From NCBI RefSeq assembly GCF_001729485.1, contig NZ_CP017157.1:1674001-1738000 (forward strand): 64,000 bases of DNA, given 5' to 3'. Below the pieces are notes generated by a model, which made no database searches, was not told the origin of the DNA, and saw only the letters and a program-made list of their open reading frames with translations. Position numbers and translations under genes: made by a program. Shown here one piece after another: positions 21,188 through 64,000 of this stretch (its first letter is position 1; the number at the start of each line of letters is the position of its first letter). Source of the stretch: Streptomyces lydicus. GTDB taxonomy: Bacteria > Actinomycetota > Actinomycetes > Streptomycetales > Streptomycetaceae.

Positions 21188-21230
21188 CTTACAAAGCAGA
21201 TGTCACAGGTTCGAATCCTGTTGTGCCCAC
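21188..21230 (+). repeat. attR core: 43-bp direct repeat, right copy
   Basis: Identical to 938-980. It restores only the tRNA-Val 3' half and is therefore not a functional tRNA. It marks the right end of element 1. The ancestral tRNA terminator follows 10 bp later. Confidence 0.95.
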
Positions 21231-47364: not shown

Positions 47365-47598
47365 TCAGCCCTTCCTCGGGCCCGCCTGCTGGACCACCTC
47401 GAAGGACCACAGGGTGGACCCGGAGGCGGCGGGCTTGGGCCGCTCGCCGCCCTCGGGAGCACCGCCCTGGTGCGCGGCCTTCATCGGGCCCTCCATCCAT
47501 GCCTGGAACGACTCCTCGTCCCGCCACCGGGTGTAGACGAGGTACTGGTCGGTGCCCTCGACGGGCCGCAGGATTGTTGGATGTACCTTACGAACCAT
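47365..47598 (-). pseudogene. antibiotic-biosynthesis-monooxygenase (ABM) gene, 5' part lost to element 2
   Basis: Only the C-terminal two thirds remain: LRPVEGTDQYLVYTRWRDEE, SFQAWMEGPMKAAH and a WSFEVV end. The N-terminal strand of the ABM fold (which would end in a phrase like GFEEFQLLRPVEG) is absent. In its place the frame runs into element DNA, MVRKVHPTI, whose ATG overlaps the integrase start on the other strand. Intact family members are about 95-110 residues. The missing 5' piece should lie beyond the right end of element 2, outside this window. Confidence 0.8.
47560..47596. other. attL region of element 2
   Basis: On the minus strand the ABM frame changes from recognisable sequence (CTGCGGCCCGTCGAGGGC, up to about 47575) to unrelated AT-richer DNA (CATCCAACAATC) just before the integrase ATG at 47597. 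Serine integrases recombine at short attB sites with a 2-bp crossover. The exact crossover cannot be fixed without the right end. Confidence 0.65.
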
Positions 47599-49252
47599 GA
47601 GCGACGATGACTTGGTATCTCGTGCGCAGTGGGGGAACTTAGAGGGGCAGCACTGGGCGGTGCTCGTCCGACTGTCCACCGACGAGAACGACGACGAGCC
47701 CGTGACCGAGCCGGTTGAGGGCGGGCGTAGGCGAGGCCCCATGACGGGGCGGGACATCAAGAGCACCAAGGAACAGGAGCGCGACGGCCGCGACTTCATC
47801 AGCCGGCATGGCGGCACGTGCGTGCACGTCTACTACGAGCCGGACACGTCCGCTTGGCGCAAGAAGCGGGTGCGGCTTCCCGATGGGCGGGTGGCCTACC
47901 GGGTTGTGCGCCCTGTCTTCGAAGGCGCGTTGGAGGACTTGAAGTTCGGTCGGGCGCCTGATGGGCGGCGCCTCGATGGCTTGATCGTCTATGACATCGA
48001 CCGCCTGACGCGCGATAACCGTCACCTGGAGGATGCCATCGATGTGGTCGAACGCCACAGGCGACCGATCATCGACATCAACGGCAGCCTTGACCTGCTG
48101 ACGGAGAACGGACGAGCCACGGCACGAGTCGTGGTGGCGATGAGCAACAAGCAGTCCGCCGACACCTCCAGGCGGGTACGCCGCAAGCACCGTGCCTTGG
48201 AGCGTGAAGGAATCCCGACAGGCGGAGCCCGACCGTTCGGCTGGAACGACGACAAGCGCACACTGCATCCGATCGAGGCGAAGCTTCTACGGGAAGCAGC
48301 TCTCGGCATTCTCGGCGGCGCCCCGGTACGAGCCTCCTGTGTTCGCTGGAATGAGCAGGGCGTGACAACGCCGCGGGGCAGCACATGGAGCACTACCAAG
48401 CTCAAGTTGGTCCTGCGGAACCCACGCATCTGCGGGATCCGCTCCCGCAAGGCTCGTGTACTCAACCCAGAAACCGGCAGTGAAAACGAGCGCTGGGAAG
48501 TCGTCTACGGGGACGACGGCGAGCCTGTACAGGGGCAGTGGGAGCGCATCATCACTGAGGAGCAGTGGAAAGCGCTCATGGAGGTGATCGGCGACAACAT
48601 GGCGCCGGGGAGCGGCCACAATTCACGGAAGTACTTGCTCACCGGAACTCTCCGCTGCGACAAGGACGACTGCGGTACGGCACATAGGGCGACAAAGGCA
48701 CCGAAGAGCGCGAACAAGCCACCCGGATTCTTCTACTACTCATGTCCGGACAAGGGGCAGGGCGGGTGCGGTGGTGGCACAAAGATCCCAGGGCCGGACG
48801 CGGACAAGGCAGTTACGGAACTGGTGATCGCCAAGTACGAGGAGGAGGCCGCTGCCCGGCAAGCGGTGGCGGCACCGAAGGACTGGGAGGGGGAAGAGGA
48901 GCTGACTCGCGTTCGCGAGGACATCGAGGATGCAAAGGAAGCCCGCAGACAACGCATCCTCAGCAAGGAGCGCTATTTCGCGATGCTCCAGGAGTTCACC
49001 GCCGAGGAACGTCGTCTGTTGCGTGACCGGAACCGCTGGATCAAGCATCGGCATGCTTCGTTGGGTAAGCCGGTCGACTTGCAAGCGGAGTGGGACGATC
49101 TGACGCTTCCGGAGCAGCGTGCCTATGTCGAGCAGACCCTCACCGCGGTTCTCGTCGCGCCGGCAGTCGGGCGACGTAAGCCGGTGCACACACGACTCAC
49201 CCCGCTTTTCCGCACGGAAGAGGAGGCTCAGGACCCGGATGACGACGGCTGA
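47597..49252 (+). CDS. large serine recombinase (integrase)
   Basis: 551 residues. The resolvase catalytic domain has WAVLVRLSTDE with nucleophile Ser27, the helper motif YDIDRLTRDNRHLEDAIDVV, and VVVAMSNKQSADTSRRVRRK. The recombinase domain (PFGWNDDKRTL...VRWNEQGVTTPRGSTW) and zinc ribbon (LRCDKDDCGTAH...YYSCPDKGQGGC, four Cys) follow, then a coiled coil near 440-500 (LTRVREDIEDAKEARRQRIL). It integrates by attP x attB; a directionality factor would be needed for excision and none is obvious. It starts at the element edge. Confidence 0.95.
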   Translation: MSDDDLVSRAQWGNLEGQHWAVLVRLSTDENDDEPVTEPVEGGRRRGPMTGRDIKSTKEQERDGRDFISRHGGTCVHVYYEPDTSAWRKKRVRLPDGRVAYRVVRPVFEGALEDLKFGRAPDGRRLDGLIVYDIDRLTRDNRHLEDAIDVVERHRRPIIDINGSLDLLTENGRATARVVVAMSNKQSADTSRRVRRKHRALEREGIPTGGARPFGWNDDKRTLHPIEAKLLREAALGILGGAPVRASCVRWNEQGVTTPRGSTWSTTKLKLVLRNPRICGIRSRKARVLNPETGSENERWEVVYGDDGEPVQGQWERIITEEQWKALMEVIGDNMAPGSGHNSRKYLLTGTLRCDKDDCGTAHRATKAPKSANKPPGFFYYSCPDKGQGGCGGGTKIPGPDADKAVTELVIAKYEEEAAARQAVAAPKDWEGEEELTRVREDIEDAKEARRQRILSKERYFAMLQEFTAEERRLLRDRNRWIKHRHASLGKPVDLQAEWDDLTLPEQRAYVEQTLTAVLVAPAVGRRKPVHTRLTPLFRTEEEAQDPDDDG

Positions 49253-49385: not shown

Positions 49386-50858
49386 TCAGTAGTCCGCTCT
49401 CGCGGCGGACTGCCCCTCTGACCGGGCGTAATCGCGATTGCGAGCCAAGTCTTCGGCGACTCCCGCGGCGATGAGGGCAGCGCCCGGTGTGTGACCCGAG
49501 CCGACATAACGCCAAGACACATCCGTGACCGTGCCGGGTACATCGTCGTGCCCCTCGTGCGCTGCCCGCTCCGCCCGCAGAGCTGCGTACGTCGCGGAAT
49601 ACGACCGGGACTTGGTGAGGATGTGTCCGCGGAATCCGAGGGTGTGTGCCCAGGACCGCAGTCGCAGCGGTTCGAACTCCGCCAGACCACCGAGCCTCCA
49701 ACAGGTGCGCATCAGGGCTCGGACATGAGGCGAGGAGCGCACCGCGTCGATGTCATCCCAGGCCGTGAGCCGCCGATCGGCGCCGCCTGCCGCGTCGCTC
49801 GCTCCTTTGGTGACGTACTTGGCCACGTACGCAGCCACAGCATCGTCCGTCAGGCCATAGTCCTCAGGACGGGCGCGGAGCGGCCGAACGTCGATCTCTC
49901 GGCCCCAGCGCAACGCGTGCTCGCCGATGGCTGGGCTGTAGGGCACCCGGACGACGACGGAGCGGGCAGCTGCTTGCACGGCGGCGGTAAGCCGATCGGC
50001 TGAGCCCCAGGGCGGAGGCGGATCTGCCGGGCCGGCCGGGCCGTCGAGCCGGACGACGACGTGGACGTGGACCGCCGCCCGCTTTTGGTACTCGGCGACC
50101 TTGGCGAAGGACAGTCGGGCGTGATCGGGGAAGCGGCTCTGCGGGAGGCCGGCCGTCACGGCCAGGCGCCGACGGACGGCACGAGTGAACCGGTCCCAGA
50201 GCTCCCCGACATGCGCGTGCCACAGGACGTGCGCTACGTAGTCGTAGCAGTCAACGCACAGCGGCTGGCCGACAAGGGAGTCAGCGGGATCGTGGACGGA
50301 GCAGCAGCCGGTCGGGCGTTCGTGTGCACAGTGGGCCGCATGGCGTCGCGGCCGGCAGCGTTCACCGCCTGTGGACGTGCGATGAACCGGGCTGAAGGAC
50401 GGAGCGGTCAGGGTGACGAAGAGCCGCGGGTGATCGCGCACGTCGACCGGGACGTTCTTGCCGCCGATGAGCCCGGCGCGCACGAGGTGGAACGTGTCGC
50501 CGGCGTGGAGGCGGGAGCAGGGTGCGCAGACGGTGGCCCGGCGGTTGCGGCAGCGGACGAGAAGGCGCTCGCCGGGTTCGTTTCGTGTGTCGTAACTGTG
50601 CAGGATCTCGCCGGTCGTGGCGTCGCGCGTGGTGGTCGAGCCGGCCAGGTGGATCGGGTTGGCGCAGCCGCCGGTAGCGGTGATCTGCTCAAGCCAGCGG
50701 GGGAATTGCGGGTCTTGTGCGAGCCGGATGGCGTCGCGGTCGATGTCGGAGAGCTGGCGCAGGCGCGCCGCGCGGTCGAGGGCGGCGCGCCTGTCAGCCG
50801 AGGTGATCTCGGAGGGGATGGTGGTGACCTTCCGGGGTGGGCCGCCGAAGCGGCACAG
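49386..50858 (-). CDS. RepSA-type replication initiator, start unclear or frameshifted
   Basis: The protein is well conserved in form: FPRWLEQITATGGCANPIHL, RCRNRRATVCAPCSRLHAGD, FHLVRAGLIGGKNVP, LFVTLTAPSFSPVH (rolling-circle Rep core), HVHVVVRLDG (metal His motif) and YVAKYVTKGA. These match RepSA of pSAM2. In this frame no ATG or GTG precedes conserved sequence; the first possible start is CTG 50858, right after TAG. A strong AAGGAG plus ATG at 50887 (MDDTTPPPSHC) lies in another frame. A frameshift near 50855-50860, or a CTG start, must be assumed. It may be inactive. Confidence 0.75.
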   Translation of the reverse strand: MCRFGGPPRKVTTIPSEITSADRRAALDRAARLRQLSDIDRDAIRLAQDPQFPRWLEQITATGGCANPIHLAGSTTTRDATTGEILHSYDTRNEPGERLLVRCRNRRATVCAPCSRLHAGDTFHLVRAGLIGGKNVPVDVRDHPRLFVTLTAPSFSPVHRTSTGGERCRPRRHAAHCAHERPTGCCSVHDPADSLVGQPLCVDCYDYVAHVLWHAHVGELWDRFTRAVRRRLAVTAGLPQSRFPDHARLSFAKVAEYQKRAAVHVHVVVRLDGPAGPADPPPPWGSADRLTAAVQAAARSVVVRVPYSPAIGEHALRWGREIDVRPLRARPEDYGLTDDAVAAYVAKYVTKGASDAAGGADRRLTAWDDIDAVRSSPHVRALMRTCWRLGGLAEFEPLRLRSWAHTLGFRGHILTKSRSYSATYAALRAERAAHEGHDDVPGTVTDVSWRYVGSGHTPGAALIAAGVAEDLARNRDYARSEGQSAARADY

Positions 50859-51056: not shown

Positions 51057-51251
51057 CTAGGTGTGCTGGAAGCCCGAGAAGACCCAGGTCACGAGACCGT
51101 TGATGGTGAAGATCACCGGGGTCTGGCCGATGTAGACGCCGAAGAGCGCGATGAGCACGGCTTCCCAGGCCCGGACGTCGCGGGAGCGCACCAGGAGCAC
51201 GGTGATGATTCCGAAGGCCACCGCGAACGGGATGGCCGCTACATCGCTCAT
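51057..51251 (-). CDS. small two-helix membrane protein, spread-type
   Basis: 64 residues, MSDVAAIPFAVAFGIITVLL and AWEAVLIALFGVYIGQTPVI as two membrane segments joined by a charged RSRDVR turn. Same length and pattern as the protein at 6976-7170 in element 1, so this is a shared AICE family. Its ATG overlaps the TraSA stop (ATGA). Confidence 0.75.
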   Translation of the reverse strand: MSDVAAIPFAVAFGIITVLLVRSRDVRAWEAVLIALFGVYIGQTPVIFTINGLVTWVFSGFQHT

Positions 51252-52555
51252 GCCTCTGCCTCCGCTTCCAGGGTTTTCAGGGCGCTTGCGAGGCCCGGAA
51301 GTTCGGGCGCCAGGTCGGCGTACTTCACTGCGGCTTCCTTGGCCTCTTCGGGTCGGGTCAGGTGCGAGCGGGCCCGGCCCCAGCCGCCGTCCGTGCCGGT
51401 GCAGACGGCTACGCCCTTCTCCTCCGCGCTGATCGACTGGGCCACGGCCACGGCGTCCTTGTTGAGGTCGCCGAGGGTCATCTCCGCCGTGCCGGGATCG
51501 TTCACCCGGTGGCAGATCCGGCCGCCGAGCTGTGCCCGCAAAGCAGTGACTCCGGGGCCGAGTTCAGAGCCGACCCGCTGTCCGGCCACCACCAGGTGGA
51601 GTCCGAGTGCGCCGCCGAGCTGAGCCAGCCGCAGGAGGTACGTGGAGCACTGCTCCGCCTCTGCCCGGTCTCCGCGGGTTCCGTTGGACAGGTACAACTC
51701 GGCGATCTCGTCGACGATCAGGACGACCGGTGCCGGCCGCTGTTTCTCGGGCAGCTCCCAGATCGAGCGCGCGCCCGCTGCCCGGCAGATGCGCATCCGG
51801 TCCTGCATCTCCACCACGAGCCCGCCCAGTAGCGCGGCAGCCTCGCGGCGGCAGGTGGCCAGAGCCGAGAGTCGGCTGCCGAAGAGCCCCAGTTCCATTC
51901 CCCCCTTGCAGTCGATGCCGATGAGGGCGACCGGCTGCGGTGCGAGCTGGGTGATGAGTCGCGCCAGGAGCGTGGACTTGCCCGACCGGGTAGCCCCGGT
52001 GATCAGCCAGTGCGGTTCCTTCCGCAGGTTCATCACCCACGCGCCGCCGCTCTCCAGTGCTCCGAGCAGGGCCGAGAGGAGAACGGCCGGAGCGGAGGCG
52101 ATGCCGGGGCGCTCCAGGGGGTCGCCGGCGGTGGCGACCATGCGGACGATGCCGCGCTCGGGGGAGGAGACGCGTACCGCGTGCATGTGCCAGGCATGCG
52201 CCAAAGCATCACCAGCCGCGATGAACGGCGCCGGGGTCTGCCCCGGGTGGAGACGTACTTCCACGCGCAACCCCGTACGCGTCGCCGTGGGGAAGGAGAT
52301 CCGCGGGGCGATGGGCCGCAGTGCTTCCCCCTTGACCACCAGGTCACCGACGCGTCCGCAGGTAGGTCGGCGTGAGACGGTCAGGTCGTTGATCAGTGCG
52401 ACCTTCCGCCAGCTCCCCAGCACCCGGACGACGGCCACCGGATAGCCGGTGAGGTACCAGGCGCTGACCGGATACCGCTCCCGCACGAAGTTGCCCACGA
52501 CCAGGACCCAGGCGAGTGCCGCCAGGAGTAACGCGAGGGTGATCGCTCCCATCAC
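51248..52555 (-). CDS. TraSA-like FtsK/SpoIIIE DNA translocase
   Basis: 435 residues. One N-terminal membrane segment (ITLALLLAALAWVLVVGNFV), Walker A GATRSGKS at 187-194, Walker B PVVLIVDEIAELY (Asp282, Glu283), and the LVVAGQRVGSELG sensor strand. It is shorter than the 737-aa translocase of element 1 and lacks its long linker and terminal winged helix. The two translocases are different subfamilies. It drives double-stranded DNA transfer. Start 52555 overlaps the SCO3933-like gene end by 4 bp. Confidence 0.9.
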   Translation of the reverse strand: MMGAITLALLLAALAWVLVVGNFVRERYPVSAWYLTGYPVAVVRVLGSWRKVALINDLTVSRRPTCGRVGDLVVKGEALRPIAPRISFPTATRTGLRVEVRLHPGQTPAPFIAAGDALAHAWHMHAVRVSSPERGIVRMVATAGDPLERPGIASAPAVLLSALLGALESGGAWVMNLRKEPHWLITGATRSGKSTLLARLITQLAPQPVALIGIDCKGGMELGLFGSRLSALATCRREAAALLGGLVVEMQDRMRICRAAGARSIWELPEKQRPAPVVLIVDEIAELYLSNGTRGDRAEAEQCSTYLLRLAQLGGALGLHLVVAGQRVGSELGPGVTALRAQLGGRICHRVNDPGTAEMTLGDLNKDAVAVAQSISAEEKGVAVCTGTDGGWGRARSHLTRPEEAKEAAVKYADLAPELPGLASALKTLEAEAEA

Positions 52556-52908: not shown

Positions 52909-53085
52909 TTCTTTGGCCTCCTTGGCCACTGATGCGTCAGCCGGGGTGGCTGACGTCACTTGTCCTGACGAGTTACGACTATGGAGCCCTATGCGGCTTG
53001 CGCGCAAGTACTTATGCTGACGAGTGATGTGCGACGACTGACGTCATGCGCACCCTTGCTATCCGACCGAGACGAAGGCCCCGCA
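52909..53085. promoter_or_regulatory. divergent promoter with TGACGTCA pair and TGACGAGT repeats
   Basis: Palindrome TGACGTCA occurs at 52951-52958 and 53039-53046. CCTGACGAGTTACGACT (from 52965) and GCTGACGAGTGATG (53017) form direct repeats between them. The region separates the transfer operon from the GntR gene and should hold the KorSA-type operator. Confidence 0.55.
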
Positions 53086-53868
53086 ATGGCAGAGATTCAG
53101 CGCCCGGGAGCGCTCTATCAGCAGGTCGCCGCCGCCATCCGCGAAGCGATCTTGTCCGGAGAGTTCCAGCCAGGAGCGCCGCTCCCCTCGGAAGCTCAGC
53201 TCATCGAGCGCTACAAGGTCTCCCGCCCGACCGTGCGCAACGCGATCGCCGCGCTCCGCGCCGAGGGACTGATCGAGGTCAAGCACGGCAAGGGCAGCTT
53301 CGTCCGCTCCTCCGGCCTGCCGGTGCTCACCGTCGAGCGCCGCGTCAGCCTCAGCGGAACGGACCAGTTCACCACCGCCGACGGTGAGACCTGGAAGATC
53401 GTCGACGGCCCGAGTGTCTACCGCACGCAGACCACCGCGACTACCGGCCCGCTTCTCCAACTGGGAGAGATGGAGGAGCTGTTCGGCTGTGACCGCACAC
53501 TCATCGATCAGGCAACCGGCGCCCGAGCCCTGCACCGCACCTTGATCCCGTTCGCCACCGCTGACCAGGTGCCGAGCCTCGCCGACAGTCCCGACGCCGA
53601 GCCGGAAGCGATCTACGGCATGCTCGCCAAGACCGGCCACAAGCTGTGGTGGCACGAGACCGTACGAGCCCGCATGCCCCTCCCCGACGAACGGTCCGCG
53701 CTGCACATCCCCGACGCCACCCCGGTCCTGCACACCACCCGCACCGCACACGGCCTCGACGACCAGGCCCTCCTCCTCGAAGAGCTGTGCCTCGGCGCCG
53801 ACCGCGCCCAACTCGGCTACCGGATCACCGCGGATGAGGACGGCAACGCGCGCACCACGACGCCCTGA
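53086..53868 (+). CDS. GntR/HutC-family regulator (KorSA-like)
   Basis: 260 residues from ATG 53086. The N-terminal winged helix is ALYQQVAAAIREAILSGEFQPG...LPSEAQLIERYKVSRPTVRN...GKGSFVRS. The C-terminal part resembles a UTRA ligand domain (RALHRTLIPFATADQVP, RARMPLPDERSALHIPDATPV). In pSAM2 this position is taken by KorSA, which represses the transfer activator. The frame extends upstream to 52981, but that part covers the operator. Confidence 0.85.
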   Translation: MAEIQRPGALYQQVAAAIREAILSGEFQPGAPLPSEAQLIERYKVSRPTVRNAIAALRAEGLIEVKHGKGSFVRSSGLPVLTVERRVSLSGTDQFTTADGETWKIVDGPSVYRTQTTATTGPLLQLGEMEELFGCDRTLIDQATGARALHRTLIPFATADQVPSLADSPDAEPEAIYGMLAKTGHKLWWHETVRARMPLPDERSALHIPDATPVLHTTRTAHGLDDQALLLEELCLGADRAQLGYRITADEDGNARTTTP

Positions 53869-56250: not shown

Positions 56251-57621
56251 ATGAACCGAGAGCCGAACGCGCAACTGATCGCAGTCATGGACGAGGCGAA
56301 GGTCTCGAACAAGGGCCTCGCAAAACGCATGAAGGACGCCGCCGAGCAACGCGGCACCAATCTCGGGACGACCCATGTCTCCGTACAGCGGTGGAGGGAC
56401 GGCGCGGGGATCCAGCCGAGCACGGCCGCGATCATGGCGGACGTACTCAGCGCCAAGCTCAACCGGCGGATCACGCCCGGCGATCTCGGATTCTTCGCTC
56501 AGTCGGAGCCCGCAGCTCCATCGCCGGCCGCATACCCGCGCACGGTCCCCGACGTCCTGTCGACGCTGGATGGCCTCGCAGAGGAACGGGCGGAGACCCC
56601 GTCGAACAGTCCGCTGATCATCCCCGACGGCGACCTCAGCGCCGCAGTCCTCTCCTGGATCGTCGCCCGTCCAGACGGCATCGAGGCCGATCGCCCCGCC
56701 ACCCAACGCGTCGGCATGCGCGACGTCAAAGCGATCAGGGCAGCCGCCGAGATGTTCATGCAGCTCGACTTCAAATTTGGCGGAGGGCATGGCCACAAGG
56801 CCCTACGCCACTACTTCCGTCACGAGGTCCTGCCCCTGCTCGGCGCCAGTTACAGCGAACGCGTCGGCACAGCACTGTTCGCCGCCGCTTCCGAGATCTC
56901 ACAGCTACTCGGATGGACCGCGTACGACTCCGGGAACCACGCCCTCGCGCACCGCTACCTGACCGCGACGTTACGCCTGTCCCAGGTCATCGACGACCGC
57001 ATGTTCGGCGCCCGCATCCTCGGCAACCTCAGCCACCAGGCGAACTACCTCGGCCACCACGCTCAGGCCATCCAGCTCGCCCGGGCCGCCGTCGAGGGAG
57101 CCAAGGGACGAGCCACCCCGCGCGCGATGGCGAACTACTCAGCCATGGAAGCTCGCGCCTACGCGAACGCAGGCGACACCGGCGGCGCCGGCCGAGCCAT
57201 GAACGAGGCCGAACGCCACTTCCAGCGAGCCGACACGGGCGAAGATCCGGAATGGCTCGGCTACTTCGACTCGGCAGAGCTCATGGGCGAACTCTGCCAC
57301 TGCTTCCGCGACCTCAAGATGCGCCGCGAGTCGATCGAGGCCGCACAACGGGCGGTCGACGACACCGACCCGAAGTACGCCCGCACCCTCGGGTTCTGCC
57401 GGATGGTCCTCGCCCAGAGCCAGCTGCTGAACGGTGAACTGGAAGCCGCCGTTGAGACCGCCAGCCTCGCGGTCGATGGCGGAGACTCCCTCCAGTCCTC
57501 CCGCTTCCAGCGCTACGTCACCGACTTTCAGCAGGAGGTCAGCATCCACGCGGGGAACCCCTCCGTGGCCGCCTTCCATGACCAGGTGCGGGAGGCCCTT
57601 GCCCGGCTGGACGACGAGTAG
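56251..57621 (+). CDS. HTH regulator with TPR-like C-terminal domain
   Basis: 456 residues. The first about 75 residues hold a divergent HTH (NKGLAKRMKDAAEQRGTNLG, THVSVQRWRDG). Residues about 140-440 are helical repeats of TPR type (AHRYLTATLRLSQVIDD, LGHHAQAIQLARAAVEGAKG, RESIEAAQRAVDDTDP). This layout matches Streptomyces development regulators of the NsdA kind. It is divergent from the HATPase gene; the two probably form a regulator pair. It likely binds the palindromes at 56142-56190. Confidence 0.8.
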   Translation: MNREPNAQLIAVMDEAKVSNKGLAKRMKDAAEQRGTNLGTTHVSVQRWRDGAGIQPSTAAIMADVLSAKLNRRITPGDLGFFAQSEPAAPSPAAYPRTVPDVLSTLDGLAEERAETPSNSPLIIPDGDLSAAVLSWIVARPDGIEADRPATQRVGMRDVKAIRAAAEMFMQLDFKFGGGHGHKALRHYFRHEVLPLLGASYSERVGTALFAAASEISQLLGWTAYDSGNHALAHRYLTATLRLSQVIDDRMFGARILGNLSHQANYLGHHAQAIQLARAAVEGAKGRATPRAMANYSAMEARAYANAGDTGGAGRAMNEAERHFQRADTGEDPEWLGYFDSAELMGELCHCFRDLKMRRESIEAAQRAVDDTDPKYARTLGFCRMVLAQSQLLNGELEAAVETASLAVDGGDSLQSSRFQRYVTDFQQEVSIHAGNPSVAAFHDQVREALARLDDE

Positions 57622-59480: not shown

Positions 59481-59795
59481 GTGGCAGAGATCGGGCTGGC
59501 TGCAGCAATCGAAGAACTGCGACAGGAACTGTATGCGGCCCAGAGCGCCAGTGCAGGAGAGCAGTTCGCCTTCGAGGTTGAAGGAGCGCAGCTTGAGCTG
59601 CTGTTGGAGCTGCGCAATGAGGGCCGCGGGGAGGGAAAGCTGACGTTCGGCGTGGCCACCGTAGGTGTTGGCGGCTCGACTGGAGCGACGCGAACTCACA
59701 AGCTAACCCTCGCGCTAAAGGTCAAGGATCGTGCCACGGGTGATGGGCGCGTTCATGTCGGTGCTGAGGAGTCCGGCTCCTGGGGCGAGGGATGA
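59481..59795 (+). CDS. trypco2 (trypsin-co-occurring domain 2) protein
   Basis: 104 residues from GTG 59481 with CACGGGG upstream. VAEIGLAAAIEELRQELYAA, FAFEVEGAQLELLLELRNEG and KLTFGVATVGVGG then THKLTLALKVKD follow the trypco2 pattern: an N-terminal helix and a beta sheet ending in a short strand pair. The family is defined by its co-occurrence with trypsin-like proteases in putative conflict systems. Here a trypsin-containing gene begins 48 bp downstream, so the pair is an operon. Trypco2 is thought to be a docking or activating partner; this is family knowledge, not shown here. Confidence 0.85.
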   Translation: MAEIGLAAAIEELRQELYAAQSASAGEQFAFEVEGAQLELLLELRNEGRGEGKLTFGVATVGVGGSTGATRTHKLTLALKVKDRATGDGRVHVGAEESGSWGEG

Positions 59796-59842
59796 CCGCT
59801 CTACGGTGGGGGATTGATCGAGGCATGGGCTGAGGCGAGTGC

Positions 59843-62800
59843 ATGGACGAGCGAAGATTGGCGGATGTCCGTTGCGACGGCACAGGCCGCCGCAAAGGTG
59901 GGACGGGTTACCTCATCGCCCCGCACTTGGTGCTAACAGCTCGCCATGTCACCGTCGACGAAGCCGATGAGGTCTGGCCGAGGATCAGCGTCCGGGTAGG
60001 CCATCCGCCGTCCGGCGGCGTGGAACGGCGTCTGGCCACAGTCTGCTGGACCGATCCTGACGGCCTCGACGCGGCCCTGCTGCTCCTGAACGCGCCAGTG
60101 AGCGTCCCAGGATCGGTGCGCTGGGGCCTTCCGGTTGGAACTGCTGCCCTCCCATACGCTGGCTTGGGATACCCGCTCCAGAGCATGGTGGAGGACGATC
60201 AACGTCTGGTGGAGCACCTACGCGGCGTGCTCTCCCCACTGGCTGGAGGCGAAGGCCCCCATGACCTTTACACGCTTGACCAGCACGCTGCCCCGCGTCT
60301 TCGAGCCGACCGGCGGCGAGCTTGGGGCGGCGTCTCGGGGGCGGCAGTCTTCTGCCAAAACGTTCTTGTTGGCATCGTTCTCCACGACGACGAGGAGCAT
60401 GAGAACCGCCGACTGCGCGCGCTGCCAATCCGTAGGTTTGCCGAAAACTCCACTTTCGTCGAGACGCTGCAGAGTCATGGTGGTTCGGCTCCTGATCTGG
60501 TGCCCGTGAATGAATCACCTGTAGCGCCTCACCCCGGCGACCGGCTGGAGGTACGCGGGCTTACGCAGGAGCGCTTCGATAGCCACGCGGGAGAGTTGGC
60601 TTTGGCGGCAGACCGCTGCACTCAGCCCCCGGATTCGCCGAGTGGTGGGGCTGCTTACGGGCCACCGCCGGTCAGTGCCCAACTGGAGTCGATGAGCGAT
60701 GACGTCTCCAATCGCATTGCACAGCTGCACGAGAGGTTCGGGCTCGGCGTTGTTGTCGTCGTCGGGACCGGGCTGTCAACCAACGCTGGGATGACGGCAT
60801 CGTTGCGGAACGCTATCGACGCTGATCCCGTAGCCCGAGCCGCGCTCGCTGCTGAACTTGGCCAGCCCGATCAGCCTGTGAGACTCCTTATACGCGACGA
60901 CTGCGCTCGCAGTGATCTGGTGTGGCGCGCTGTGGAAGACTCCATACTCGCCAGGCGGCGCTTCCAACAGGAGATGGCCAATCTCGATCTGCGTCGCAGC
61001 GCACAGCCCTCCCCTACGCACGAGGCACTCGCAGCACTGATCCACGCTGGGGTCGTCGATGCCGTTGTATCGCTCGGCTGGGACACTGCTCTCGAGTCCG
61101 CTTATCGCCGCCAGTACGGAACAGGGGTCCCCTCGGGAATCCTGTTCAAGCCTCTCGGCGATGCTGCCCGTCCTGAGCAGCACTGGGTGCTTCCGCATAT
61201 GCCTGGAACGCTAAGTGCGGACCTCGATGACCGGGTCCGCCATCTTGTGTCAGGCCACCCGCGCACTTTGCTCCTGGTTGGATGCGCAGAACGAGACCGG
61301 TACACGGTCGAGCAACTAATCGCGCGTCTAGATCAAGGGTGGCGCATATGTCACATTGGGCCCGAAGCATCCGGAGCTGACGACATCCGCTCCACAGTCG
61401 ATCTAGCTCTGCCCGCGCTCGCCAGCAAGGTGCGTGAACGGGAAGTCATGTCGTCCTGGCATACTCTCTCGTTCGCCGGCGAGGGGGATATCGGGCGTGC
61501 TTTGGCTGGGGCGCGCCTCGGCCCTGCCGATGTGGATGCCTGTCCTCGACTCTTTGAAGTCGATCTCATCGTCGACGGGCTGCGGCGCGATCACGCCGTC
61601 GTGCTCAACGGGGATAGCGGCTGTGGCAAGTCAATTACCGCTTACCAGGCTTTGAGCGATCTCGTCAAAGACGGCTATGAGGCGCTGAGATTGCGAGATC
61701 AGGCCCGTAACCGTGGCCCGCGGCAGTGGACGGCGGACCTTGCCTCGCATCCACATCGCAAGATTCTTTTGATCGACGATGCGCAGGACCTGTCCGCAGA
61801 CCTGGTCCGTGAACTGGCTGAGACTGCCACCTCGGATCAGCTGGTACTGATCGTCGGTGTGGACCATGTGGCAGGCGGCGTCACGACGTATCGCATCAGT
61901 GACGCTGCCGCGGTGGGCACTCTTGCCGCCGAAATGCGTAAACGTGCGGGTGAGATCCTGCCTACGTTACGTCAACTGGACGACCTCGTGGGGGATCAGA
62001 TCGGTGATGAGTCTTTGCTTGATCGCCTCGCTGAAGCCTCCAGGGAGGATTCAGCGTGGCGATTCTTCTACACGCTCACCGGTGGCTGGCGGCGCACTGA
62101 ACGCGATGCCCTTGACCTCCGTGGGCAAGACCGTGCAGACCTGGTCCTGCTGGCGCTCGCTGTAGCGCAGGTCGCCAGTGTCGATGCCGGTGTGACGGCT
62201 GAAGACCTCGAGCCTTACGCTCAGGCACTTGGCCGTGACCGCGACTGGATCGATTGCGGACTTCGCATCCTTGAGAACAAACGCCTAACTGCAGTGAGCG
62301 ACGGAGTTCTGCGCTGCGCACACCTCAGGTCCGCATGGGCGCTAATCACATGGATGCTCCACCCACCGGACGTCAGCTTGCCGGCTCAGAAGCGGATCGT
62401 GATTCCGCCGATCGCGTCAGCAGCACCGCCCGTCCCGTCAGCTTACGAGCCCCCTGCCCGCCGTACGCGGCGTGCCCGGGCGCTGCTCCCGCAGAGCCAG
62501 GTCGAGGCAGACCGTGAGGCTGTAGCAACTCTTCTCTGTCTCGCGCTGGACGCACACGACACATCACTGCGAGGCGCTGCATGGCTGGTCGGGCGAAATC
62601 ACGGGATGGAAGCACGGGGAGTGCTCCGTGAAAACGGCGTCCTCACCCGCTCGCGGCTCCGCGCACTGGCCGAACGTGCACTGGCCACCCCTCCTGGCGT
62701 CGATGCGGGTATGGCCGCCCAACTCCTTGAACGGCTGCTGCGTCTGGGCGCGCGTGGCTGCCTGGACCTGATTCGGGATCACCGCTGCAGAATCCGCGAA

Positions 62801-64000
62801 TGGGTTTTCGATATCTCGCCTGAGAATGGATGGGCGATCGGAGACTTGATTAATACGCTGTCGCACGAGGACCGCATCTTTACCGAGCAACTCCTCGCCG
62901 ACATGGACCCACATGCACTCGCGCGCCTGATTCCCGCAGGCGGCTGGCCGCATATTTACTCCACCACTCATGCCGTCGAGAGGATTACACAGAGCGGCGG
63001 TGCGCGTCTTATGCAGAGTGTTGGTGACTCCTATGACCCGAGTGCCTTCCGTGCGCTCGCCGCCAGCCCTCCCGCAAGCATTCGAGATGTTGACGAGCTG
63101 TTCAAAGCCTTGGCCTTTACGTCACGGGATCTTGGGCTCGCGATATTTGAGCAAATGTCTCCCTATCTTGCTGTCCAGGTCTCGCGGAACCCTCCCGTTG
63201 AATCTCAGAAGATGTTCGACACCTGGGCATTCCTCTTGGGATTTGCTCCGCAGTTTCTCCGAGGTAGGCGAGGGCCTGACCGTGCGGCCCGCCGAATGGC
63301 AAAGAACTTCGTCCGTGGCCTCAATATCGACCAACTCGCCAAAGCGCTCTCGCTGCCCCGCACCGACCTAACCTGGCACAACTTTCATGACTTTGTGTCC
63401 TTTGTTTGGGAAGCCGACCCGACGATCGGAAAAGCTATCGTAGGCCGAATGGATCTGGAGACGCTAGCAGCAGAATTTGAGAAAAGCCTTCCGGTGCCGT
63501 CCCGGAATCATCTGTTCGCTGTCGAAGTTCTCTATGAATTCAGACCTGCTGAAGCCCGAGAGCTCCTCGAACGGCACGAGGATCAATATGAAGAAATTGA
63601 TCTTTTGCTCGCTCACATGGCGCCCGGGATGGCAACCCGGCTACTACGCCGCGGCCTGCCGCTCGACCTGGCCCTCCACCTCCAGTACTGGACATTAGCT
63701 GCCGTCCTGCTAGATAGCTTGGCTAGCTGCGATGCTCAAGTTGCAGCCGAACTCGCCGTTGCTAATTGCTCGGGATTTGTCGCGGGGCTTGCCTCCAACT
63801 ACACAGATCCGTTCGAAGGTCTCTCCGCCTGGGTGCAAGCATGCGAGACTCACGCTCCCGGGCTCGTAGATGATGCCATTCGCCAGCTTCCCGCGGGCGC
63901 AGTTGCGGCTTGGGCGGGTGCGCTCCGCAAGCCCGCTCGGAGACACGAGATCACACCGCTCGTATATCGAGCTCTGGGAATAGGAGGGCCGGCAGCAGCA
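59843..64000 (+). CDS. trypsin-SIR2-STAND NTPase fusion (conflict/defence protein), truncated by window
   Basis: Open from ATG 59843 to the window edge: 1386 codons with no stop. Residues about 15-200: trypsin-like protease with His35 (LTARHV), Asp76 (LDAALLLL) and Ser165 (GGVSGAAVF). Residues about 295-530: SIR2-like, VVVVVGTGLS (303-312), but the usual T-x-N-Y-D is SLGWD (410-414) and the K-x-HG site is KPLG (436-439, no His), so NADase activity is doubtful. Residues about 580-: STAND-type NTPase, Walker A GDSGCGKS (590-597) and Walker B ILLIDDAQD (Asp645/646). The long helical C-terminal part would sense a trigger. It follows trypco2. This order is not one I recall as a named system. Confidence 0.8.
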   Translation, partial: MDERRLADVRCDGTGRRKGGTGYLIAPHLVLTARHVTVDEADEVWPRISVRVGHPPSGGVERRLATVCWTDPDGLDAALLLLNAPVSVPGSVRWGLPVGTAALPYAGLGYPLQSMVEDDQRLVEHLRGVLSPLAGGEGPHDLYTLDQHAAPRLRADRRRAWGGVSGAAVFCQNVLVGIVLHDDEEHENRRLRALPIRRFAENSTFVETLQSHGGSAPDLVPVNESPVAPHPGDRLEVRGLTQERFDSHAGELALAADRCTQPPDSPSGGAAYGPPPVSAQLESMSDDVSNRIAQLHERFGLGVVVVVGTGLSTNAGMTASLRNAIDADPVARAALAAELGQPDQPVRLLIRDDCARSDLVWRAVEDSILARRRFQQEMANLDLRRSAQPSPTHEALAALIHAGVVDAVVSLGWDTALESAYRRQYGTGVPSGILFKPLGDAARPEQHWVLPHMPGTLSADLDDRVRHLVSGHPRTLLLVGCAERDRYTVEQLIARLDQGWRICHIGPEASGADDIRSTVDLALPALASKVREREVMSSWHTLSFAGEGDIGRALAGARLGPADVDACPRLFEVDLIVDGLRRDHAVVLNGDSGCGKSITAYQALSDLVKDGYEALRLRDQARNRGPRQWTADLASHPHRKILLIDDAQDLSADLVRELAETATSDQLVLIVGVDHVAGGVTTYRISDAAAVGTLAAEMRKRAGEILPTLRQLDDLVGDQIGDESLLDRLAEASREDSAWRFFYTLTGGWRRTERDALDLRGQDRADLVLLALAVAQVASVDAGVTAEDLEPYAQALGRDRDWIDCGLRILENKRLTAVSDGVLRCAHLRSAWALITWMLHPPDVSLPAQKRIVIPPIASAAPPVPSAYEPPARRTRRARALLPQSQVEADREAVATLLCLALDAHDTSLRGAAWLVGRNHGMEARGVLRENGVLTRSRLRALAERALATPPGVDAGMAAQLLERLLRLGARGCLDLIRDHRCRIREWVFDISPENGWAIGDLINTLSHEDRIFTEQLLADMDPHALARLIPAGGWPHIYSTTHAVERITQSGGARLMQSVGDSYDPSAFRALAASPPASIRDVDELFKALAFTSRDLGLAIFEQMSPYLAVQVSRNPPVESQKMFDTWAFLLGFAPQFLRGRRGPDRAARRMAKNFVRGLNIDQLAKALSLPRTDLTWHNFHDFVSFVWEADPTIGKAIVGRMDLETLAAEFEKSLPVPSRNHLFAVEVLYEFRPAEARELLERHEDQYEEIDLLLAHMAPGMATRLLRRGLPLDLALHLQYWTLAAVLLDSLASCDAQVAAELAVANCSGFVAGLASNYTDPFEGLSAWVQACETHAPGLVDDAIRQLPAGAVAAWAGALRKPARRHEITPLVYRALGIGGPAAA

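Follow-up and report, generated by a model that had tools for sequence, protein, structure and literature searches.

In protease-HamA, Avs1 and Lamassu systems with a metallo-β-lactamase (MBL) pro-nuclease, the sections of Tuck et al. (2025, PMC12799240) that we draw on describe (i) an N-terminal trypsin on a sensing protein, (ii) a separate partner gene directly upstream, and (iii) recurrent transfer between systems, with virtually all protease-HamA fusions lacking the HamA motif. Avs5 (AVAST type 5) proteins place a SIR2 domain before a STAND nucleoside triphosphatase (NTPase) and a helical C terminus, and in the trypco2-trypsin-VMAP-MoxR ternary conflict systems, as outlined in part of Kaur et al. 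(2020, PMC7159879), a trypco2 gene adjoins a trypsin gene. Here, in a 64,000-nucleotide stretch of Streptomyces lydicus (contig NZ_CP017157.1, positions 1,674,001 to 1,738,000; hereafter, the window), we describe a trypco2 gene followed by a single gene for a trypsin-like protease, a SIR2 fold, an nSTAND NTPase and a helical solenoid. Based on its sequence, namely the domain order, the intact protease and Walker motifs, the missing SIR2 catalytic residues, the faster evolution of SIR2, a single clade of fused proteins, the trypco2 pairing and the cargo status, we moderately favor a reading in which a STAND-type immune protein has exchanged its effector, with a captured protease as its output and a decayed SIR2 domain kept as a scaffold. 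The features of the locus are as follows.

59481..59795, + strand: trypco2 gene, 104 amino acids (aa); GTG start at 59481 set by homologue alignment; PF19631, E 2.5e-21
59843..64084 (window portion to 64000), + strand: trypsin / decayed SIR2 / nSTAND / helical-repeat gene, 1,413 aa
59843..60532, + strand: trypsin-like protease domain, residues 1-230; triad H35, D76, S165
60692..61477, + strand: SIR2-fold domain, residues 284-545 (fold about 285-541); catalytic Asn and His gone (N412G, H438L)
61478..62392, + strand: nSTAND NTPase and the helical part behind it, residues 546-850; Walker A GDSGCGKS, Walker B LLIDDAQ
62393..64084 (window portion to 64000), + strand: all-helical solenoid, residues 851-1413; model m041a84491cb7, mean predicted local confidence (pLDDT) 87

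A first-pass annotation of this DNA had proposed a unit of trypco2 and a trypsin-SIR2-STAND protein, and the unit proved real in its domain order, its His35/Asp76/Ser165 triad and its trypco2 partner, which lies upstream with a gap of 47 bp to the fusion gene. Sequence past position 64000 showed the gene to be complete, with a stop at 64084. The predicted model recovered a SIR2 fold directly before the STAND NTPase, with fold and reading frame retained, and its top Foldseek match was the EfAvs5 SIR2-STAND structure 9jap (E 1.6e-13; ∼12% identity in the fold alignment); the C-terminal part is modeled as an all-helical solenoid and is a likely sensor. By sequence, solved structures gave no match at E 0.01 with an alignment query or at E 1 with the protein query, and no Avs5-named profile matched the window protein or the scanned relatives in libraries that were not checked for such a model. 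Residues 11-179 have a weak match to an Avs1b profile (E 2.6e-5). The public protein record of the same genome (P0002, 1,130 aa) begins at residue 284, which hides the trypsin domain. We considered that the trypsin frame could be spurious upstream sequence and rejected this: the frame is genuine because it is open and because three relatives carry the trypsin (64-74% identity, 99-100% query coverage). An internal start at Met284 making a second, trypsin-less form is possible.

Compared with the systems of Tuck et al., the window locus shares the N-terminal trypsin and the upstream partner gene, and differs in that their host is the HamA nuclease and their partner an MBL nuclease, a gated pro-nuclease that the protease cleaves to activate it, whereas here a SIR2 domain and trypco2 take these places; the term "Trypco" is absent from the main text of PMC12799240. 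Avs1 likewise bears its trypsin on a STAND protein, with an MBL nuclease gene upstream where ours has trypco2. Avs5 proteins form filaments when activated. Relative to Avs5, the window protein has an additional N-terminal trypsin, and the catalytic Asn of TTNxD and the HG/NG motif, as given in the portion of PMC12931631 on active-site motifs, are gone (Gly412, Leu438). The ternary systems of Kaur et al. share the trypco2 family adjoining the same trypsin type; in the window, however, the protease is fused to SIR2-nSTAND, and no match named VMAP, MoxR or vWA occurred among the eight neighboring open reading frames (ORFs) or the subset of ORFs scanned in the 49-56 kb region.

A set of 5.8 billion proteins was searched three times, each search scoring only the ∼8,000 candidates sharing most words: one gave 36 hits, one from the more distant member P0028 gave 15, and one with the four fused proteins gave 70. 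A profile search of the 105 proteins collected found three with the same trypsin-SIR2-nSTAND order as the window protein, namely P0003 (S. viridosporus), P0004 and P0005. A further 40 are SIR2-nSTAND proteins lacking the trypsin (with SIR2 truncated in P0014), and three (P0034-P0036) share the NTPase and C terminus behind a different N-terminal domain, which by eye we take to be Mrr-like. Another 57 carry the same trypsin type without the other three profiles, and NACHT, AAA, nSTAND or TPR Pfam domains are listed for several of these; the remaining two are the window's own. In Klebsiella and Enterobacter plasmids, we also observed a protein that, in its NTPase part, shares 33% identity with residues 507-751; in the one such record opened (CP128707.1, L022 4682-7804), it adjoins a gene annotated as a restriction endonuclease.

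At the DNA level, Streptomyces genomes were searched in three overlapping draws of 392, 354 and 368 genomes, each genome contributing two scored candidates; divergent copies can be missed in this way. A trypsin-SIR2-STAND fusion was found in the source genome only (itself absent from the matches of the third draw). The numbers of other genomes that matched SIR2-STAND parts lacking the trypsin were 4, 3 and 4, with broken frames in two of them. A protein-level search over 101 genomes returned the genome's own copy alone at E 1e-20. No relative was present among the 68 viral-contig stretches that matched a pattern, and 50,697 phage records gave no match. The frame-broken SIR2-STAND copies at L031 and L034 (genomes G112 and G261) lie near both ends of two large contigs and are probably terminal repeats of linear chromosomes.

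To describe the decay of the SIR2 active site, we aligned its motifs in the 47 trypsin-less rows covering that region (44 clusters at 95% identity) and the four fused rows, leaving out of the counts P0002, which is the window's own record, P0014, which lacks its N terminus, L015, whose frame is broken, and P0034-P0036, whose N-terminal domain differs. All 47 trypsin-less rows carry G[AS]G-x-S, the S[LFY]NWD Asn and the KPHG His. In the fused proteins, GAG has become GTG (4/4), the catalytic His is lost in three (KPLG in the window, H438L; KPYG in P0004; KPRG in P0005), and the catalytic Asn is lost in one, the window protein (SLGWD, N412G), which thus has lost both and also lacks six residues after the first motif. 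Among 30 SIR2 columns that are ≥97% invariant in the trypsin-less rows, seven are altered in the window protein, six in P0005, four in P0004 and none in P0003; among 26 NTPase columns of the same invariance, P0004 has one change and the window protein, P0003 and P0005 have none. The protease triad and Walker motifs are intact in all four. In Avs5, as reported in the mutational part of PMC12931631, defence is abolished when the corresponding Asn is changed to Ala; at the HG position, Ala and Gln likewise abolish it, and His works in part. By homology, Leu, Tyr and Arg at position 438 are expected to be inactive, and the window SIR2 domain has lost residues expected to be necessary for NADase activity.

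The fused rows form one clade (support 99.1/100), and the rows closest to it are trypsin-less, three Streptomyces loci among them, so that one gain of trypsin is simpler than many losses. Three distinct replacements at position 438 suggest separate losses within this clade. SIR2 evolution, relative to the NTPase part, is ∼2 times faster in the fused clade: the pairwise distance ratio of SIR2 to NTPase plus C terminus is 1.41 (95% bootstrap interval 1.17-1.69) in the fused proteins and 0.65 (0.50-0.84) in the sister group, and the corresponding branch-length ratio is 1.57 in the fused clade, 0.79 on other branches and 0.72 within the sister group. With distances taken to that sister group, the individual ratios come to 1.07 (window), 0.88 (P0003), 1.15 (P0004) and 1.28 (P0005), against 0.70-0.83 for three control rows.

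The first-pass annotation had read the two domains as two effector-type domains with staged activation. On such a reading, protease and SIR2 would both act, and the SIR2 domain would bind or destroy NAD. The preserved SIR2 fold and reading frame would suit this, as would the retention in all four fused proteins of Asp414 and Glu483, which by alignment correspond to Avs5 residues where an Ala substitution abolished defence in the mutants covered by that part of PMC12931631; in P0003, both catalytic residues and the 30 invariant columns are unchanged. Against it, the window domain carries N412G, H438L, GTG, the six-residue gap and seven altered columns, and SIR2 evolves faster in the fused clade. 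We therefore consider joint action of both domains unlikely for the window protein, whose SIR2 domain resembles an earlier effector that the captured protease has supplanted, and nothing was found to support a role for it as a sensor of NAD-type ligands. A true two-effector state may exist in P0003, where the SIR2 motifs are nearly intact.

Several points count against effector replacement. The known fused proteins number only four, two of which come from short contigs, and as the four form one clade, the association amounts to one event plus later losses; Fisher tests ignore this common descent and are not readable as probabilities. P0003 retains both catalytic residues, its own branch is not fast (ratio 0.96), and two inner branches of the fused clade are slow (0.11 and 0.59). 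The Avs5 fold match has a low whole-model TM score (0.20), and the trypsin part, at pLDDT <50, yields no model of the trypsin. Within the four fused proteins, trypco2 neighbor data come from the window locus alone, and known defence neighbors are seen at trypsin-less relatives and not at the window locus.

SAMD9 and SAMD9L offer a further comparison, with the same order of effector, variant SIR2, STAND-like NTPase and helical repeats and with a fold match to our model; they differ in an AlbA-type tRNase effector and an OB-fold C terminus, with no protease in the described architecture. The decayed SIR2 domain could accordingly be a non-catalytic regulator that the adjoining effector needs, as the SIR2 region is for the rabbit SAMD9 tRNase. 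We judge this improbable: the SAMD9 match has a root-mean-square deviation of 15.4 Å, too large for a superposition of the domains as a single body, and faster SIR2 evolution suggests a weaker, rather than a new, constraint. This alternative overlaps effector replacement, from which it differs only in the remaining importance of SIR2. The locus offers a bacterial analogue for the SIR2-like domain of human SAMD9.

The source of the protease was traced through its pairing with trypco2. Between the window trypsin and those of P0029-P0032 (from Streptomyces and Kitasatospora, 1,622-1,694 aa in length), identity is 67-70%; Pfam lists TPR for P0029 and P0030. In a FastTree of trypsin domains, the four fused proteins group together (local support 0.83), then with P0029-P0031 and the Streptomyces plasmid trypsin-TPR locus L018 (0.94), and P0032 joins at 0.99. 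At L018, the trypsin is 70% and the adjoining trypco2 79% identical to the window's, whereas nine other trypco2 sequences compared are 29-62% identical. On two further plasmids (L019 and L020), trypco2, a trypsin protein (50% identical) and a MoxR ATPase follow consecutively. Matches occurred in 39 plasmid records, and six of these were opened.

trypco2 adjoins the trypsin in all seven loci that were reached via trypsin and in which it was re-detected (L005, L006, L007, L009, L018, L019 and L020); these stem from the three plasmid trypsin matches opened and from five other matches, one of which (L008) gave no re-detected trypsin. Outside this count, three loci found via trypco2 (L036, L037 and L039) also hold both genes, L038 is the same locus as L005, and L040 gave neither. 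In the flanks of nine trypsin-less SIR2-STAND loci, phmmer with the window sequences as queries found neither trypco2 nor trypsin (0/9). The presence of trypco2 beside the trypsin and its absence from trypsin-less loci indicate, at the sequence level, that protease and trypco2 most likely transferred as a unit.

We envisage the following course. The ancestor would have been a SIR2-nSTAND-solenoid protein, probably NAD-destroying once a phage trigger caused its oligomerisation. A single capture in a Streptomyces lineage would then have brought in a trypsin from another conflict system, together with the partner gene trypco2, and joined the protease to the N terminus; the protease would have taken over as output, and the SIR2 active site would have decayed while its fold persisted as the joint between protease and NTPase. 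In the present protein, the C-terminal solenoid may bind a phage product, upon which the NTPase would exchange nucleotide and oligomerise, as in the STAND class, the clustered trypsin domains would turn active, and the trypsin would cleave a substrate, with trypco2, or a target that it presents, as the most likely candidate, so that growth of the infected cell would stop. Activation by clustering has a precedent in the sections of PMC12799240 on protease activation, where a protease-cJun construct was toxic and HamA oligomerisation was proposed as the protease switch. As a more tentative extension, the trypco2-trypsin couple might be a second transferable protease/pro-effector pair, in which trypco2, a latent effector or effector-gating protein, is cut by the fused trypsin when any one of several unrelated sensors (MoxR/VMAP-type, TPR-type or SIR2-STAND) oligomerises; the window protein would then be a case of this pair supplanting an NADase in mid-decay. 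A direct test of the role of trypco2, a family named in 2020, now becomes possible.

The locus was also termed a candidate undescribed system in the first-pass annotation, which is partly right. In the literature searched, whose coverage leaves out most subscription-journal papers and bioRxiv preprints, no description of the architecture or of SIR2 decay after protease capture was found; the parts and a parallel case, protease-HamA with its dead HamA, are published (PMC12799240). In that case, as in the window protein and two of the three other fused proteins, the original effector active site was lost after fusion, as far as the HamA sections of the paper describe. The principle of effector loss after protease capture is thus already published for HamA, and the SIR2-nSTAND instance is an addition to it. 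The fused clade catches an effector exchange part-way, with one protease capture and then apparently separate active-site losses in three of four descendants, while the NTPase and protease motifs stay intact as the old active site goes. Since protease-HamA took the same course, two unrelated hosts of captured proteases show decay, which points to a rule: once a protease has been captured, the resident enzyme can be dispensed with, and its fold is retained as an oligomerising link.

We regard the window protein as a probable anti-phage protein, judging from sequence and context. Known defence genes lie within ∼7 kb at four of nine trypsin-less loci, a count from 18 neighboring ORFs that is a lower bound without a background rate: GajA in S. 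dioscori (L012; E 2.3e-210), a Ppl-like gene in Flexivirga (E 5.3e-41), HmaC in Methanoculleus (L014; E 4.2e-127) and a pPIWI-RE pair in S. bauhiniae. A TraG-type conjugation gene was seen at one trypsin-less locus; plasmids of Rhodococcus and Planococcus carry one locus each, the latter beside a recombinase. The L014 contig, on which a family member lies close to HmaC, bears an archaeal name, which may reflect a transfer across domains of life. As cargo of a conjugative-type element, with an NsdA-like regulator and an APH-type kinase among its neighbors, the locus could instead serve element maintenance, conjugal immunity or developmental regulation, as AICE (actinomycete integrative and conjugative element) cargo can; the defence neighbors of its relatives and the resemblance of its architecture to Avs-type immunity make such a role very unlikely.

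The cargo status noted in the first-pass annotation was borne out by an element with the following features.

47564..64715 (window portion to 64000), no strand: AICE-type integrative element; attachment (att) core GGCCGCAG at 47564-47571 and 64708-64715
47552..49252, + strand: large serine integrase; PF07508, E 3.8e-14; PF00239, E 9.5e-10
49386..50483, - strand: RepSA-type (pSAM2) replication initiator; PF20199, E 1.1e-116
51248..52555, - strand: FtsK/SpoIIIE-type transfer protein (Tra); PF01580, E 2.3e-23
52981..53868, + strand: GntR-type regulator, presumably KorSA-like by its position; PF00392, E 1.5e-23

The element spans 17,144 bp between core starts, with its right att beyond the window, and splits a host antibiotic biosynthesis monooxygenase-type (ABM) gene into a 3' half (∼47365-47573) and a 5' half (∼64707-64869). 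When rejoined, the halves align over the junction in all five relatives compared, which represents the empty site; G013 also matched the ABM part and is not among the five. The 8-bp core occurs 11 times in the 95 kb examined, so its assignment follows from the split gene and not from the repeat itself. A whole ABM copy inside the right end (64310-64645 in window-style coordinates, beyond the window) is a probable replacement for the gene disrupted by insertion. The integrase probably has its true start downstream of the listed GTG. RepSA aligns with positions 92-441 of the 443 of NF041486, under the cut-off, and as ∼the first 91 model positions are missing, element replication may be impaired or the gene frame-broken. 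An integrase, a Rep and an FtsK/SpoIIIE-type Tra lie between the att sites, the combination by which the relevant part of a survey (PMC3218068) recognizes AICEs, 19 of 144 of which have serine recombinases there; by these genes the element is of the AICE type, putatively capable of excision and conjugal transfer. Being inside this ABM-splitting element, trypco2 and the fusion gene are its cargo, together with the NsdA-like regulator and the APH-type kinase; upstream of trypco2, the profile scan gave first a weak DUF732 match and then the kinase.

ARAGORN calls a tRNA-Leu at 56586-56673, antisense within the NsdA-family gene (56251-57621; NF053720, E 3.3e-120), which is probably a false call. 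We considered that the fusion gene might lie outside any mobile element, as the other integrated element in the window ends near 21230, and rejected this on the split ABM gene, which marks a second element. That other element (window 938-21230) is bounded by 43-bp direct repeats at 938 and 21188 that correspond to the 3' part of a tRNA-Val gene, and it carries a tyrosine integrase (1046-2197); the fusion gene is not inside it.
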